From: Rheinheimera sediminis
Lineage (GTDB): Bacteria > Pseudomonadota > Gammaproteobacteria > Enterobacterales > Alteromonadaceae
NCBI RefSeq assembly: GCF_004005375.1
Contig: NZ_RZUF01000025.1
Location: 1 to 37,657 of the forward strand
Direction: 5' to 3'
DNA length: 37,657 bases
Shown: positions 3,502-11,683 of the stretch, in pieces
Layout of the letters: each line of letters starts with the position of its first letter
Numbering within the stretch: position 1 is the stretch's first letter
Made by a program: the position numbers and the translations under genes
Notes under the pieces: model-generated
Database searches by the model: none
Seen by the model: only the letters and a program-made list of their open reading frames with translations
Told to the model about the DNA's origin: nothing

Positions 3502-4620
3502 ATGAATAAACCACCCATTATCTGGACCAATGTGATTTTGTTTGCGTCCACTTTTCTCGCTGCTGCCATTCTGGTGCCATGGTACGCCATAGCTGTTGGT
3601 TTTACCTGGACAGAGATTATTGCCACTATTTTATGCTTGGGTTATTGCGGTATGTCGATCACCGCCGGTTACCATCGCCTTTGGGCACATAAAACTTATG
3701 ATGCTCACCCTGTACTGCAGTGGATTTACGCCATAGGCGGCGCTTTTGCTCTACAAAACAGCGCACTGCACTGGTCTTCTGATCACCGTGTGCATCATAA
3801 GTTTGTCGATCAAAATGACAAAGATCCCTACTCAGCTCAACGTGGTTTTTGGTTCAGTCATATTGGCTGGATGCTACGTGAATACCAAAGCAATACCTAT
3901 GCGGATTACAGCAATGCCCGCGACTTACAGAACAATAAAATAGTGATGTGGCAACACAAAAACTATCTGGCACTGACAGTAGCAACCAACTTTGGTATCC
4001 CACTGTTTTTAGGTTGGTTGACTGACAGCTATATCGGCATGTTATTAAGCGTTGGGGTGTTACGCTTAGTGCTCAGTCACCATTTTACGTTTTTTATTAA
4101 CTCTTTAGCTCACATCTGGGGTGACCAGCCTTACACCGATCAGAACAGTGCACGGGATAACGGCATACTGGCTTTCTTAACCTATGGTGAGGGTTACCAT
4201 AACTTCCACCATATTTTTGAATATGATTACCGCAATGGCATTAAATGGTGGCAATTTGACCCAACCAAATGGCTGATTAAAAGCTGTTCATGGCTAGGTT
4301 TAACCCGGAATTTACGAGTTTGCCCACAGGATCGGATCGAAAAAGCTAAGGTGCAGATGCAGCTGAAACGTGCGCAGGCTAAAGTCTCGCACCTGCCTGA
4401 TGCTGAGCTGGTGATGCAACGGCTGGAACATGAATACGAGTTACTGATCGAAAAAATGCATGCATACTACGATGTGAAGAAAGTCCTGCTGCAACAGAAA
4501 AAACAACAGTTGATGCAACAGTACAATGAATTTGATTTAAAACAGCAAATGGCGGAAGTAAGACGTAATCTGCAGCTGCAGCAAAGACGCTGGCAACAGC
4601 TAACTGCACAATTTGCCTGA
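3502..4620 (+). CDS. Membrane fatty acid (delta-9 type) desaturase
   Basis: Integral-membrane di-iron desaturase that introduces a cis double bond into acyl chains using oxygen. 372 residues from the ATG at 3502; the longer reading frame begins with a TTG inside the -35 box, so I reject that start. Histidine boxes: HRLWAH (58-63), HRVHH (95-99) and HNFHH (233-237), with hydrophobic segments at about 8-50 and 155-195. Residues about 280-372 are an unusual charged, Gln-rich helical tail, likely a coiled coil, after the last histidine box. Controlled by an adjacent FabR-type operator. Whether the substrate is acyl-CoA or phospholipid cannot be told from sequence. Confidence 0.92.
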   Translation: MNKPPIIWTNVILFASTFLAAAILVPWYAIAVGFTWTEIIATILCLGYCGMSITAGYHRLWAHKTYDAHPVLQWIYAIGGAFALQNSALHWSSDHRVHHKFVDQNDKDPYSAQRGFWFSHIGWMLREYQSNTYADYSNARDLQNNKIVMWQHKNYLALTVATNFGIPLFLGWLTDSYIGMLLSVGVLRLVLSHHFTFFINSLAHIWGDQPYTDQNSARDNGILAFLTYGEGYHNFHHIFEYDYRNGIKWWQFDPTKWLIKSCSWLGLTRNLRVCPQDRIEKAKVQMQLKRAQAKVSHLPDAELVMQRLEHEYELLIEKMHAYYDVKKVLLQQKKQQLMQQYNEFDLKQQMAEVRRNLQLQQRRWQQLTAQFA

Positions 4621-8715: not shown

Positions 8716-9807
8716 TCAATCGTCATCACTCAGATCAAGTTCTGTATTCATGTGATAAGTGCGACTGAATGAATGCACTGCATCAATAAACACGCCTGCC
8801 TTTTCCGGATCCACATCAGGGGTAATACCATGGCCCAGGTTAAAGACATGGCCTGAGCCCATACCGTAACCATCTAAAATGGCTTGTACTTCCTGACGTA
8901 TACGCTCAGGCGTACCTAGCAGGATAGAAGGGTCCATATTGCCCTGTAAGGCTACTTTATCTCCGATACGGGCGCGGGCGTGACGAATATCAATGGTCCA
9001 GTCTAAACCCACACCATCACAACCTGTGGCAGCAATTTCTTCCAGCCATAAACCACCGTTTTTGGTAAATAGAGTGACTGGGACAGGTCGGCCATCTGCA
9101 TGACGGGTCAAACCTGCCACTATCTGTTGCATATAGCTCAGTGAATATTCACGGTAATCGTGTGGTGTTAATACACCGCCCCAAGTGTCAAAAATCATCA
9201 CCGACTGAGCGCCAGCCGCAATTTGCGCGTTCAGATACAAAATGACACTTTGTGCTAGCTTGTCCAGCAGAATGTGCACCACCTCTGATTCTGTGTACAT
9301 CAGCTTTTTGATCTTTGAGAAGGTTTTGCTGCTACCACCTTCAAACATGTATGTAGCTAAAGTCCAAGGACTACCTGCGAAGCCGATTAAAGGCACATCA
9401 CCATTCAATTCGCGGCGAATAGTACGCACGGCATCCATAACATAACGCAATTCAACTTCAGGATCTGGCACTGGCAGCTGCATTACATCCATGAAGTCGG
9501 TTAGTTGTTTGGTAAAACGCGGACCTTCACCCTCGCCAAAATACAAGCCCATTCCCATCGCATCTGGTATGGTCAAAATATCACTGAATAAGATGGCAGC
9601 ATCCAAAGGATAACGTTTTAACGGTTGCAAAGTGACTTCACAAGCCAGCTCAGGATTCTTGCATAACGACATAAAATCGCCAGCAATAGCCCGCGTTGCT
9701 CTGTACTCAGGAAGATAACGTCCTGCCTGTCGCATCATCCATATTGGAGTGCGATCGACTGGTTGCTTCATTAGGGCCCTTAAGTAACGATCATTTTTTA
9801 GTTGCAT
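8716..9807 (-). CDS. hemE: Uroporphyrinogen decarboxylase
   Basis: Removes the four acetate carboxyls of uroporphyrinogen III to give coproporphyrinogen III in heme synthesis; cytoplasmic, cofactor-free. 363 residues (family about 355). The N-terminal signature [16 protein letters not shown] (about 21-36) holds the conserved arginines, [13 protein letters not shown] holds the catalytic Asp, and [14 protein letters not shown] is the conserved C-terminal motif. A short acidic tail (LDLSDDD) ends the protein. The ATG at 9807 has only a weak ribosome binding site. The rsd-nudC-hemE neighbourhood is the same as in E. coli, but here a 74-bp repeat array separates hemE from nudC. Confidence 0.97.
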
Positions 9808-9908
9808 CTATCATCTGCCATCTTTTGATTTATCATTAGTTTATCACTGATGTTTGATCCGTCACTATTTTTTACCAAAAGCTATTTATTATGTATAGAA
9901 AAAAGCTA

Positions 9909-10034
9909 TTGCTCTGTAAAAATACATCTGTTATAAACTACATGCGCTAGTAAAGAACAAGAATAAAGAAGCTCGTTAAAACGAGTCCTGGTAACTTTCG
10001 TTACACCTTATTTAAGCCACGTCAGTGGCTTTTT
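9909..10034 (+). ncRNA. Candidate small RNA with its own promoter and terminator
   Basis: A promoter-like pair TTGCTC (9909-9914) and TATAAA (9932-9937) with 17-bp spacing predicts a start near 9944. About 70 bp on is a strong intrinsic terminator: stem AAGCCAC (10014-10020), loop GTCA, stem GTGGCTT (10025-10031), then a T-run. Between them are two small stem-loops, CTCGT/ACGAG (9972-9985) and GTAAC/GTTAC (9991-10004). No open frame with a start and ribosome binding site is present and no plus-strand gene lies upstream, so a terminator here needs another explanation; a roughly 90-nt RNA is the simplest. The region also has to hold the hemE promoter on the other strand. Promoter -35 is poor. 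Confidence 0.35.
10014..10034 (+). terminator. Intrinsic terminator at the edge of the repeat array
   Basis: Seven-bp GC-rich stem AAGCCAC/GTGGCTT with tetraloop GTCA followed by TTT and then ATTTGC. It points rightward although no protein gene precedes it on the plus strand. Its tail (TTTTTATTTGC, 10030-10040) is also the first piece of the 74-bp repeat tract. Confidence 0.7.
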
Positions 10035-10724
10035 ATTTGCCTGCCATCCATGGCGCAAACCCTAAAGGGCCAGCTAAAGCTGTTAAAAATCTTTCCAGAA
10101 GATTTTTTATTTGCCTGCCATCCATGGCGCAAACCCTAAAGGGCCAGCTAAAGCTGTTAAAAATCTTTCCAGAAGATTTTTTATTTGCCTGCCATCCATG
10201 GCGCAAACCCTAAAGGGCCAGCTAAAGCTGTTAAAAATCTTTCCAGAAGATTTTTTATTTGCCTGCCATCCATGGCGCAAACCCTAAAGGGCCAGCTAAA
10301 GCTGTTAAAAATCTTTCCAGAAGATTTTTTATTTGCCTGCCATCCATGGCGCAAACCCTAAAGGGCCAGCTAAAGCTGTTAAAAATCTTTCCAGAAGATT
10401 TTTTATTTGCCTGCCATCCATGGCGCAAACCCTAAAGGGCCAGCTAAAGCTGTTAAAAATCTTTCCAGAAGATTTTTTATTTGCCTGCCATCCATGGCGC
10501 AAACCCTAAAGGGCCAGCTAAAGCTGTTAAAAATCTTTCCAGAAGATTTTTTATTTGCCTGCCATCCATGGCGCAAACCCTAAAGGGCCAGCTAAAGCTG
10601 TTAAAAATCTTTCCAGAAGATTTTTTATTTGCCTGCCATCCATGGCGCAAACCCTAAAGAGCCAGCTAAAGCTGTTAAAAATCTTTCCAGAAGATTTTTT
10701 ATTTGCCTGCCATCCATGGCGCAA
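10030..10724. repeat. Tandem array, 74-bp unit, about 9.4 copies
   Basis: Units begin with CTGCCATCCATGG at 10041, 10115, 10189, 10263, 10337, 10411, 10485, 10559 and 10633, and a partial tenth at 10707. Copies are identical by eye except one G-to-A change at 10660. Each unit is a chain of palindromes (coordinates from unit 1): GCCAT-CC-ATGGC (10043-10054), CCCT-AA-AGGG (10060-10069), CAGCT-AA-AGCTG (10071-10082) and a 9-bp hairpin AAAAATCTT-TCCAG-AAGATTTTT (10085-10107). The last is terminator-like, T-rich on both strands. 74 is not a multiple of 3 and one frame is closed, so it is not a coding repeat; there are no unique spacers, so it is not CRISPR. The array fills the gap between the 3' end of nudC and the hemE promoter region. 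Near-identity suggests recent expansion and likely copy-number variation between strains. Confidence 0.97.
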
Positions 10725-10732
10725 TGCTTCAT

Positions 10733-11533
10733 TTATCTTCCACCCTTAGCAATATACTGAATCACCTGACCTGATAAGGTTGCCACCATTGGTACTTCTG
10801 GAAGCTGATCCATATCAAACCAATGTGCTTCTTCTATCTCATCAGGCTGACACTGCAACTCGCCAGACTTATAGTCAGCAATAAAAGCTGTCATCAGAGA
10901 ATGAGGAAAAGGCCAGGGTTGACTGCCCATGTATCGTAAATTGTTGATATCAATACCAACTTCTTCTTTTACTTCCCGTACCGCGGCTTGTTCCAGGGTT
11001 TCTGCAGACTCAACAAAACCCGCTAAAATGGAGAAAAAACCTGTTTTATGCCGGGCAGAGCGAGCCAGTAATAATTGGTTTTTGTCATTGACGACGGCAA
11101 TCAGTACACAAGGATTAATTCGGGGATAACAACGATGACCACATTTGTGGCATAGCGCTGCCAGCTCCCAGTTCACCAGATGCATAGAGCTTCCGCATTG
11201 ACCGCAGTATCTATGGGTTTGCAAAAACAACGCGACCTGACAGGCTCTGGCGGCATGTTCAAAAATAGCTGCCGATTGCTCAAGCAAAGCTCGGGCTGAA
11301 TGCCACTGTTCTTCTGCTTCTGGCCTGTCGGTGTAATTCAGCAGATAACAGTTCACTCCATCAATGGCACCAAGCAAACACAGAGGTTCACTGCCATCTA
11401 AAAAATCAGGCAACTGGTCATAACGACACAGAGGTGGCGGCGCATCGACAGACGGTAGCCAGATTTTACCCTGACTGACAATAAACCAGTGACCATACAA
11501 GTCAGCTGTAGCAGGCACATTGTGCTTGATCAT
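10733..11533 (-). CDS. nudC: NADH pyrophosphatase / NAD-cap hydrolase
   Basis: Nudix enzyme that splits NAD(H) and removes NAD caps from RNA 5' ends. 266 residues from the ATG at 11533, which has GGTGGAG about 11 nt upstream; a longer frame to 11602 adds 23 atypical residues. Zinc ribbon cysteines are C110, C113, C128 and C131. The Nudix box, G172 to I194, contains REVKEEVGI, and SQPWPFPHS just after it is the NudC-specific motif. The array of 74-bp repeats begins 9 bp past the stop codon, so the message probably runs into or ends within it. Divergent from rsd. Confidence 0.95.
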   Translation of the reverse strand: MIKHNVPATADLYGHWFIVSQGKIWLPSVDAPPPLCRYDQLPDFLDGSEPLCLLGAIDGVNCYLLNYTDRPEAEEQWHSARALLEQSAAIFEHAARACQVALFLQTHRYCGQCGSSMHLVNWELAALCHKCGHRCYPRINPCVLIAVVNDKNQLLLARSARHKTGFFSILAGFVESAETLEQAAVREVKEEVGIDINNLRYMGSQPWPFPHSLMTAFIADYKSGELQCQPDEIEEAHWFDMDQLPEVPMVATLSGQVIQYIAKGGR

Positions 11534-11683
11534 TTTTTGTTTTACTCCACCACTTATTCGTATAAACAGGCGTATGATAGAGTGAAAGACTGAACCGACC
11601 AATAAAAAAGTAGTTGATCTTTATCCGAGAATTCTTTTAATTAGAGGTTCAGAGCAGTAAGTCACTTGAGTAAGGGGAAGTAT

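Follow-up and report, generated by a model that had tools for sequence, protein, structure and literature searches.

A 74-bp tandem array between nudC and hemE of Rheinheimera sediminis as a probable local amplification of a small four-hairpin element

Background

REP sequences and the BIMEs that they form are described as short non-coding palindromic repeats which lie mostly behind genes, singly, inverted or in tandem, and for which a non-autonomous mobility on single-stranded DNA has been proposed (PMC8266576, PMC3733652). Group IIC introns are described as adjoining Rho-independent terminator stem-loops or attC sites (PMC7923331).

The repeat analysed here fills the gap between nudC and hemE in Rheinheimera sediminis and lies in a 37,657-nucleotide stretch of contig NZ_RZUF01000025.1 (assembly GCF_004005375.1), referred to as the window. 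Like REP/BIME with its RAYT (TnpA-REP), the element is a small palindromic repeat grouped behind genes; unlike REP/BIME, it has four ordered hairpins and no GTAG tag, and in Rheinheimera it often lies exactly at terminator T-runs. It resembles the group IIC introns in standing next to a terminator stem-loop, at 13/29 and 18/20 of the Rheinheimera loci described below, but at about 72 bases it is too short for a ribozyme or a reverse transcriptase and it has no Rfam match.

MITEs of DDE transposons are small, non-coding, dispersed and structured, and the element is all of these; it differs from them in that the junctions read show no duplication of the target site. CsrB/RsmY-type decoy RNAs carry a series of hairpins whose loops hold GGA. 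The element shares this motif and no more, and it departs from such decoys in that its GGA strand would not be consistently transcribed, in that copies lie within a transposase gene, and in having no Rfam match. We file it as a variant among the small palindromic mobile elements, REP/BIME-like in its working and without the GTAG tag. Our reading of the array, to which we give a probability of about 0.7, is that a small non-autonomous mobile element inserted beside a terminator hairpin and was then expanded locally.

A homogeneous array of four-hairpin units

TRF reported a sole tandem array in the window, at 10030-10724 on the + strand, with a period of 74, 9.4 copies and 99% matches, and a BLAST search of the unit returned eight units at 100%, a ninth at 99% and, at 10696-10724, a final match over 29 of the 74 bases. 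These results bear out the original prediction, made from the letters of the window, of nine full units and a partial tenth differing only by a G-to-A change at 10660 (+ strand), and also its placing of that substitution in the CCCT/AGGG dyad, as 10660 falls in the AGGG half. A covariance model put the first copy of the element (model R1 positions 1-72) at 10035-10107 on the + strand with 70.1 bits and the starts of the further copies at 10109, 10183, 10257, 10331, 10405, 10479, 10553 and 10627, the ninth copy scoring 62.5 bits. The partial tenth copy (10701-10724, + strand) consists of hairpin A only and is seen by BLAST and as a weak model match (15.3 bits, E 0.15).

All four dyads that had been described for each unit are present. 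In the first copy, on the + strand, they are hairpin A at 10043-10054 (GCCAT-CC-ATGGC, whose loop reads GGA on the - strand), the CCCT/AGGG hairpin at 10060-10069, hairpin B at 10071-10082 (CAGCT-AA-AGCTG) and hairpin C at 10085-10108 (AAAAATCTT/AAGATTTTT, loop TCC), the T's of which continue into the next copy. Each is supported by the sequence and by folding, hairpin A also by covariation of its stem in other genomes, hairpin B also by covariation and hairpin C also by the alignments. When folded, one unit gives four hairpins on both strands and does slightly better than shuffled sequences (z -2.13 on +, -1.42 on -).

Both neighbours are encoded on the - strand: hemE (uroporphyrinogen decarboxylase; 8716-9807, PF01208, E 1e-143) and nudC (NADH pyrophosphatase, NUDIX; 10733-11602, PF00293 and PF09297), whose stop codon is 8 bases from the array end. 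An mRNA reading through from nudC would include the array's GGA strand. A coding repeat was considered and rejected, 74 not being a multiple of three and the frames inside the array running to 62 and 64 codons. The unit had no plasmid or phage match (blastn, E 1e-5), the core pattern of the element had no exact match in viral_contigs, and positions 9800-10760 had no Rfam match at E<=1.

The assembly is a draft of 100 contigs and the exact copy number may thus be off. A larger error, in which assembly inflated a short repeat, could be imagined from the draft state, the identity of the units and the N letters within the arrays at loci L012 and L013. We regard such an artefact as extremely improbable, given that full units stand in the same gap of five other genomes and are tandem in three of them, that arrays occur at other loci of the single-contig genomes G015 and G021, and that one substitution is private to the ninth unit.

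A dispersed family in Rheinheimera and across Gammaproteobacteria

A search of the unit against its own genome and relatives, which the original prediction had proposed, revealed a dispersed family and not a single locus. By BLAST the unit matches more than 12 other places in its own genome, and its 12-base core, GCCATCCATGGC, occurs 39 times there versus 0 times for the same letters reversed. The covariance model, built from 70 copies (alignment A1), found 94 matches in the own genome at E<=0.1, which is a lower bound because 150 of 1328 first-look candidates were scored. Model matches at E<=0.001 are present in 20/22 Rheinheimera genomes, several of which also supplied rows to the model. Across the class Gammaproteobacteria, matches at E<=1e-6 were found in 70/369 sampled genomes and 66/272 genera, own included, again a lower bound with 13 candidates scored per genome under strict filters. 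A core-pattern scan of named genomes gave at least 112 stretches, and among the matches listed the core and the same downstream pattern occur in Shewanella, Pseudoalteromonas, Psychromonas and Idiomarina/Aliidiomarina as well as in Paraglaciecola, Microbulbifer, Rhodanobacter, Luteimonas and others; a few core matches (e.g., L096, L113 and L159) look like chance. Most copies are about 70-82 bases long.

Other arrays in the own genome have periods of 72 to 226 bases, some with an inverted copy or a GTAG-type palindrome. Direct and inverted copies of the element are mixed in the arrays at L009, L013 and L019, which have periods of 145 to 226 bases, and L009 holds another array (3735-4354) without the four-hairpin element. 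At L012 (2817-3390) and L018 (2747-3605), GTAG-type palindromes are tandemly amplified beside or with the element, and amplification is therefore not confined to the four-hairpin element. Gaps at the orthologous sites described below also contain a second repeat, roughly 60-125 bases by eye and starting about CGTACTTG(A/C)AGC(C/T)GCA, which was seen in L183, L184, L191, L192, L193, L210, L211, L212 and L215.

Covarying stems and fixed loops

Alignment A1 comprises the window unit and 69 of 107 parsed copies, the other 38 having been left out by eye as near-duplicate, incomplete or non-element (some of them look like chance coding matches). In A1, 95.0% of cells are paired (81.4% in helix B and 97.3% in helix C) and covariation is 0.459, versus 0.135 for shuffled and at most 0.095 for slid alignments, though two of five measures are not clearly above shuffles (double-changed pairs 22/500; pair types 208/500). 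Helix A is invariant in A1 because the search pattern fixed it. Alignment A2, with 39 distinct copies from other families, is 91.4% paired with covariation of 0.528 versus 0.138 shuffled, and all five measures beat every shuffle; A2 was aligned to the model and is hence biased towards the model structure, and as one of its rows shares a contig with A1 (L244 and L125) it is not wholly independent. Double changes appear in all four helices of A2. Helix A, 79.4% paired, has them in 9/9 pairs, and the CCC/GGG helix shows a change in one cell only.

The loops behave otherwise. The TCC of loop C is present in 69/70 rows of A1 and 41/41 class rows, i.e., 110/111 together, and loop A reads CATCCNTG in 27/41 class rows, with all four bases occurring at N. 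In the aligned copies, then, compensating substitutions alter the stems, and the triplets in the loops (TCC, read as GGA on the opposite strand) remain constant. Fixed loops together with freely covarying stems point to recognition of shape by a yet-to-be-found protein.

A fixed GGA in a hairpin loop also brings the CsrA/RsmA proteins to mind. The motif reported for RsmE is A/U-CANGGANG-U/A (PMC5864733), and CANGGANG does lie in a hairpin loop of the element, on the complement strand only. The array could then be a decoy: with CANGGATG in hairpin A and GGA in the hairpin C loops of the - strand, a nudC read-through RNA would present about 19 GGA hairpins, which might sequester CsrA. The retention of CATCCNTG, the complement of CANGGATG, in the class copies and of TCC in loop C agrees with a decoy, as does the distance of 8 bases from the nudC stop codon with GGA in the sense of nudC. 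However, at the 13 own-genome loci that abut a terminator, the TCC strand is the terminator sense strand, and the neighbours downstream, defined by longest open frame and not by gene annotation, do not share one orientation. For these two reasons the GGA strand would not be consistently transcribed, and we consider a decoy role very unlikely.

Placement behind terminators

The left edge of the array is the T-run of a host intrinsic terminator, AAGCCACGTCAGTGGCTTTTT (10014-10034, + strand), which was identified by scan and folding with a score of 18 and folds at -10.7 kcal/mol (z -5.23). This terminator closes a putative sRNA-like block (9943-10034, + strand, its start being provisional) that has three hairpins in addition and was recognised by conservation, the aligned stretch 9925-10034 having 97% mean column identity in 12 Rheinheimera genomes. 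The block had no Rfam match, and in 197 sampled genomes of the order it had two weak partial matches beyond its own, both in the same family. A promoter-like TTGCTC-17-TATAAA at 9910-9938 was picked out by eye and is absent from the promoter scan output.

Across the own genome, the first copy is directly behind a hairpin and T-run in 13/29 loci (score >=18), versus 0.43% of 3000 random control positions. The 16/29 loci below 18 include L010 and L016, which abut a terminator by eye, two loci that score 17 and one that scores 15. The own loci unmatched to a terminator all have at most 60.8 bits, and two of them (L011 and L019) are arrays. In four other genomes, 18/20 strong loci score >=16 versus 61/3000 control positions (2%); these 20 loci were picked from the strongest model matches and are all Rheinheimera, L280 among the 18 is doubtful by eye, and the scoring script was widened between the own-genome and other-genome counts. 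Both counts cover the upstream side on the same strand, in Rheinheimera. A T-rich 3' end is found in 26/26 aligned Rheinheimera copies versus 2/44 elsewhere, where one of the two (L134) is from a MAG and where the label Rheinheimera was assigned in this analysis for L072 (a MAG), L075, L077, L078 and L079.

With copies so placed, one may ask whether the array itself terminates transcription. The original prediction had taken the 9-bp hairpin of each unit as terminator-like on both strands. The hairpin exists, but its terminator-like character was overstated: the stem is near-pure A/T, the energies are -5.5 (+) and -5.1 (-) kcal/mol, and when the whole stem is paired most of the T's fall inside it. 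Hairpin C does not combine a GC-rich stem with a T-run in the manner of intrinsic terminators. Its folding energy at six loci is -2.0 to -9.4 kcal/mol versus -10.2 to -16.3 for the host terminator. A scan of 9700-10900 for terminators with at least three G-C pairs gave two sites versus 1.4 expected, namely the pre-existing terminator (10014-10031) and one on the - strand within the sRNA-like block, and none inside the array.

Copies could nonetheless persist for their ability, as a series of hairpins with T's, to halt read-through out of nudC or the sRNA-like gene. On either strand, every unit does carry an A/T hairpin with T's at its end, and the T-rich ends of the Rheinheimera copies and their placement behind terminators would suit such a function. 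We nevertheless judge a functional terminator array unlikely: hairpin C is weak beside the host terminator here (-5.5 vs -10.7 kcal/mol) and at the six loci, the scan detects none within the array, 42/44 copies outside the Rheinheimera set are without the T-rich end, and the unit-free genomes G012, G014 and G008 still have the host terminator. The weakness of the hairpins and those 42 copies likewise tell against the idea of nine serial terminators insulating hemE, which is not supported in that form.

Filled and empty orthologous sites

The flank of the nudC gap was matched in 12/22 genus genomes. Full units number nine in the own genome, five in G016, two each in G001 and G021, and one each in G005 and G007; G003 and G015 have a partial copy, a contig end interrupts G010, and in this gap G012, G014 and G008 have no recognisable copy, though the host terminator is retained. 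At a second site (site 2, L014), the terminator is readable in 12/22 genomes, the regex having failed on the other ten, with 9, 5, 3, 2, 1, 1 and 1 units and five empty sites. Site 1 (L017) has a readable terminator in 20/22 genomes (the regex failed on G003 and G020); G000, G005, G008 and G015 are filled, the G005 copy having been missed by the regex and read directly, and the rest are without an abutting copy. In G009 a copy lies about 50 bases beyond, and G003 has a short remnant.

The junctions are exact, and the one at site 1 can be read in both states: the T-run is followed by GCCTTCGTACTTGC when empty (G014, G021) and by ATTCGC...CAATTTTTTGACCTTCGTACTTGC when filled (G000). No target duplication is visible at site 1 or at the transposase-gene junctions described below, with at most a T shared in either case. 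The patchy occupancy could partly be loss.

Growth of the array

The original prediction had taken near-identity to mean recent expansion or active homogenisation, and the comparison among arrays agrees. Units of the nudC array are 0.997 identical (99.7% mean within-array identity), versus means of 0.70-0.79 (69.6-79.4%) and a maximum of 0.838 to four other own arrays, and unit counts differ among species. Orthologous units are closer in G005 (best 0.865) and G001 (0.851), or 96% and 94% in BLAST, the global identities being lowered by a script that cut the orthologous units a few bases short; those in G007, G016 and G021 are not closer (0.718 to 0.811). With near units in two of these genomes and more distant ones in the other three, the nudC locus shows a history of its own in which unit types have turned over.

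Three more own arrays are homogeneous (0.965-0.993). The C12 array, with a mean of 0.863, goes as low as 0.722, the between-locus level, which suggests repeated insertion or exchange at that site. In 4/5 arrays compared, copies are far more alike within a site than between sites.

Copies inside a RAYT-like transposase gene

A distant RAYT-like transposase gene contains nine copies of 71-73 bases, in four genera, between TTY/TTA and TGGG/TAGG/TGGT, and its homologues L286 and L287 read TTT-TGGG uninterrupted, without the element. Against the NCBIfam RAYT model the gene falls below the cut-off (8.7e-5 and 0.014), and against Pfam Y1_Tnp it has 0.018. The element is at one same spot in L087 (5231-5302), L074, L076, L081, L101, L118, L127, L130 and L145, and in L087 the gene is open on both sides of it. 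L114 and L145 have several elements in one RAYT-like transposase gene, and the transposase genes of L074, L109 and L145 have apparent extra palindromic inserts of about 18-20 bases, by eye. An in-frame, tolerated insert was tried as an explanation and rejected, since inserts are 71, 72 or 73 bases and 8/9 hold an in-frame stop.

No transposase was found travelling with the element, the PF01797 count and copy number giving a positive but non-significant Spearman coefficient of 0.40 (p 0.064) in 22 genomes. PF01797, a model that is not RAYT-specific, matches in 19/22 genus genomes; G009, G019 and G002 hold copies without a PF01797 match, and G006 and G020 have PF01797 and no copies.

These observations bear on the possibility of a REP/BIME family proper, in which a RAYT would mobilise an ordinary REP family and the palindromes might be binding sites for gyrase or IHF. 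The repeats are indeed short and palindromic, lie behind genes and form tandem and inverted groupings as in BIMEs, with grouped copies in direct or inverted orientation. However, GTAG or CTAC occurs in just 5/70 and 6/41 rows, there are four hairpins over about 72 positions where a REP has a single palindrome of 20-50 nt, the 22 genomes searched with PF01797 do not consistently show a Y1 transposase, and by eye the GTAG-type palindromes of L012 and L018 are separate, beside the element. CGTC/GACG, the alternative REP tag, is present in 22/70 and 25/41 copies, counted anywhere in the copy and at no fixed place, which makes this a weaker test than that for GTAG. We hold an ordinary REP family to be quite improbable.

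Proposed mechanism and significance

The preferred reading, a locally amplified non-autonomous hairpin element, would work as follows. The element comprises four consecutive hairpins (A, CCC/GGG, B and C), with a fixed TCC in loops A and C (GGA on the other strand). An enzyme would recognise the folded single strand and insert it next to another hairpin with T's. In Rheinheimera the element's own end is itself a hairpin followed by T's, and every insertion would therefore recreate the type of target that it used. New copies behind old ones may come from re-insertion; the commoner route would be slippage, or unequal recombination among copies that are identical. At the present locus, an element would have settled behind the terminator of the sRNA-like gene upstream of hemE, and one unit type would then have been amplified to nine. 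We infer this mobility from occupancy, junctions and the comparison of copies, all of them sequence data.

Because the hairpins are weak and the GGA strand is not arranged for transcription at other loci, we hold the element to be mainly selfish. Any function at the nudC-hemE locus is putative, and the consequences for nudC or hemE, if any, are probably minor by-products.

A bolder proposal, which we make tentatively and think somewhat unlikely, is that the four-hairpin element represents a separate class of mobile DNA, Gammaproteobacteria-wide, inserted as a folded single strand via its fixed TCC/GGA loops by a putative enzyme, with one lineage that became terminator-specialised, target-regenerating and array-building. 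If true, recognition would be via loops and not via stem sequence or end tags. We found no description of the element in the open-licence literature searched.

As it stands, roughly one in five of the class genomes sampled (70/369) contain a miniature element conserved in structure, and in Rheinheimera many genes have it at their 3' ends. There, its copies form natural filled/empty terminator pairs in sister species, which makes both the effect on termination and the insertion rule directly testable.
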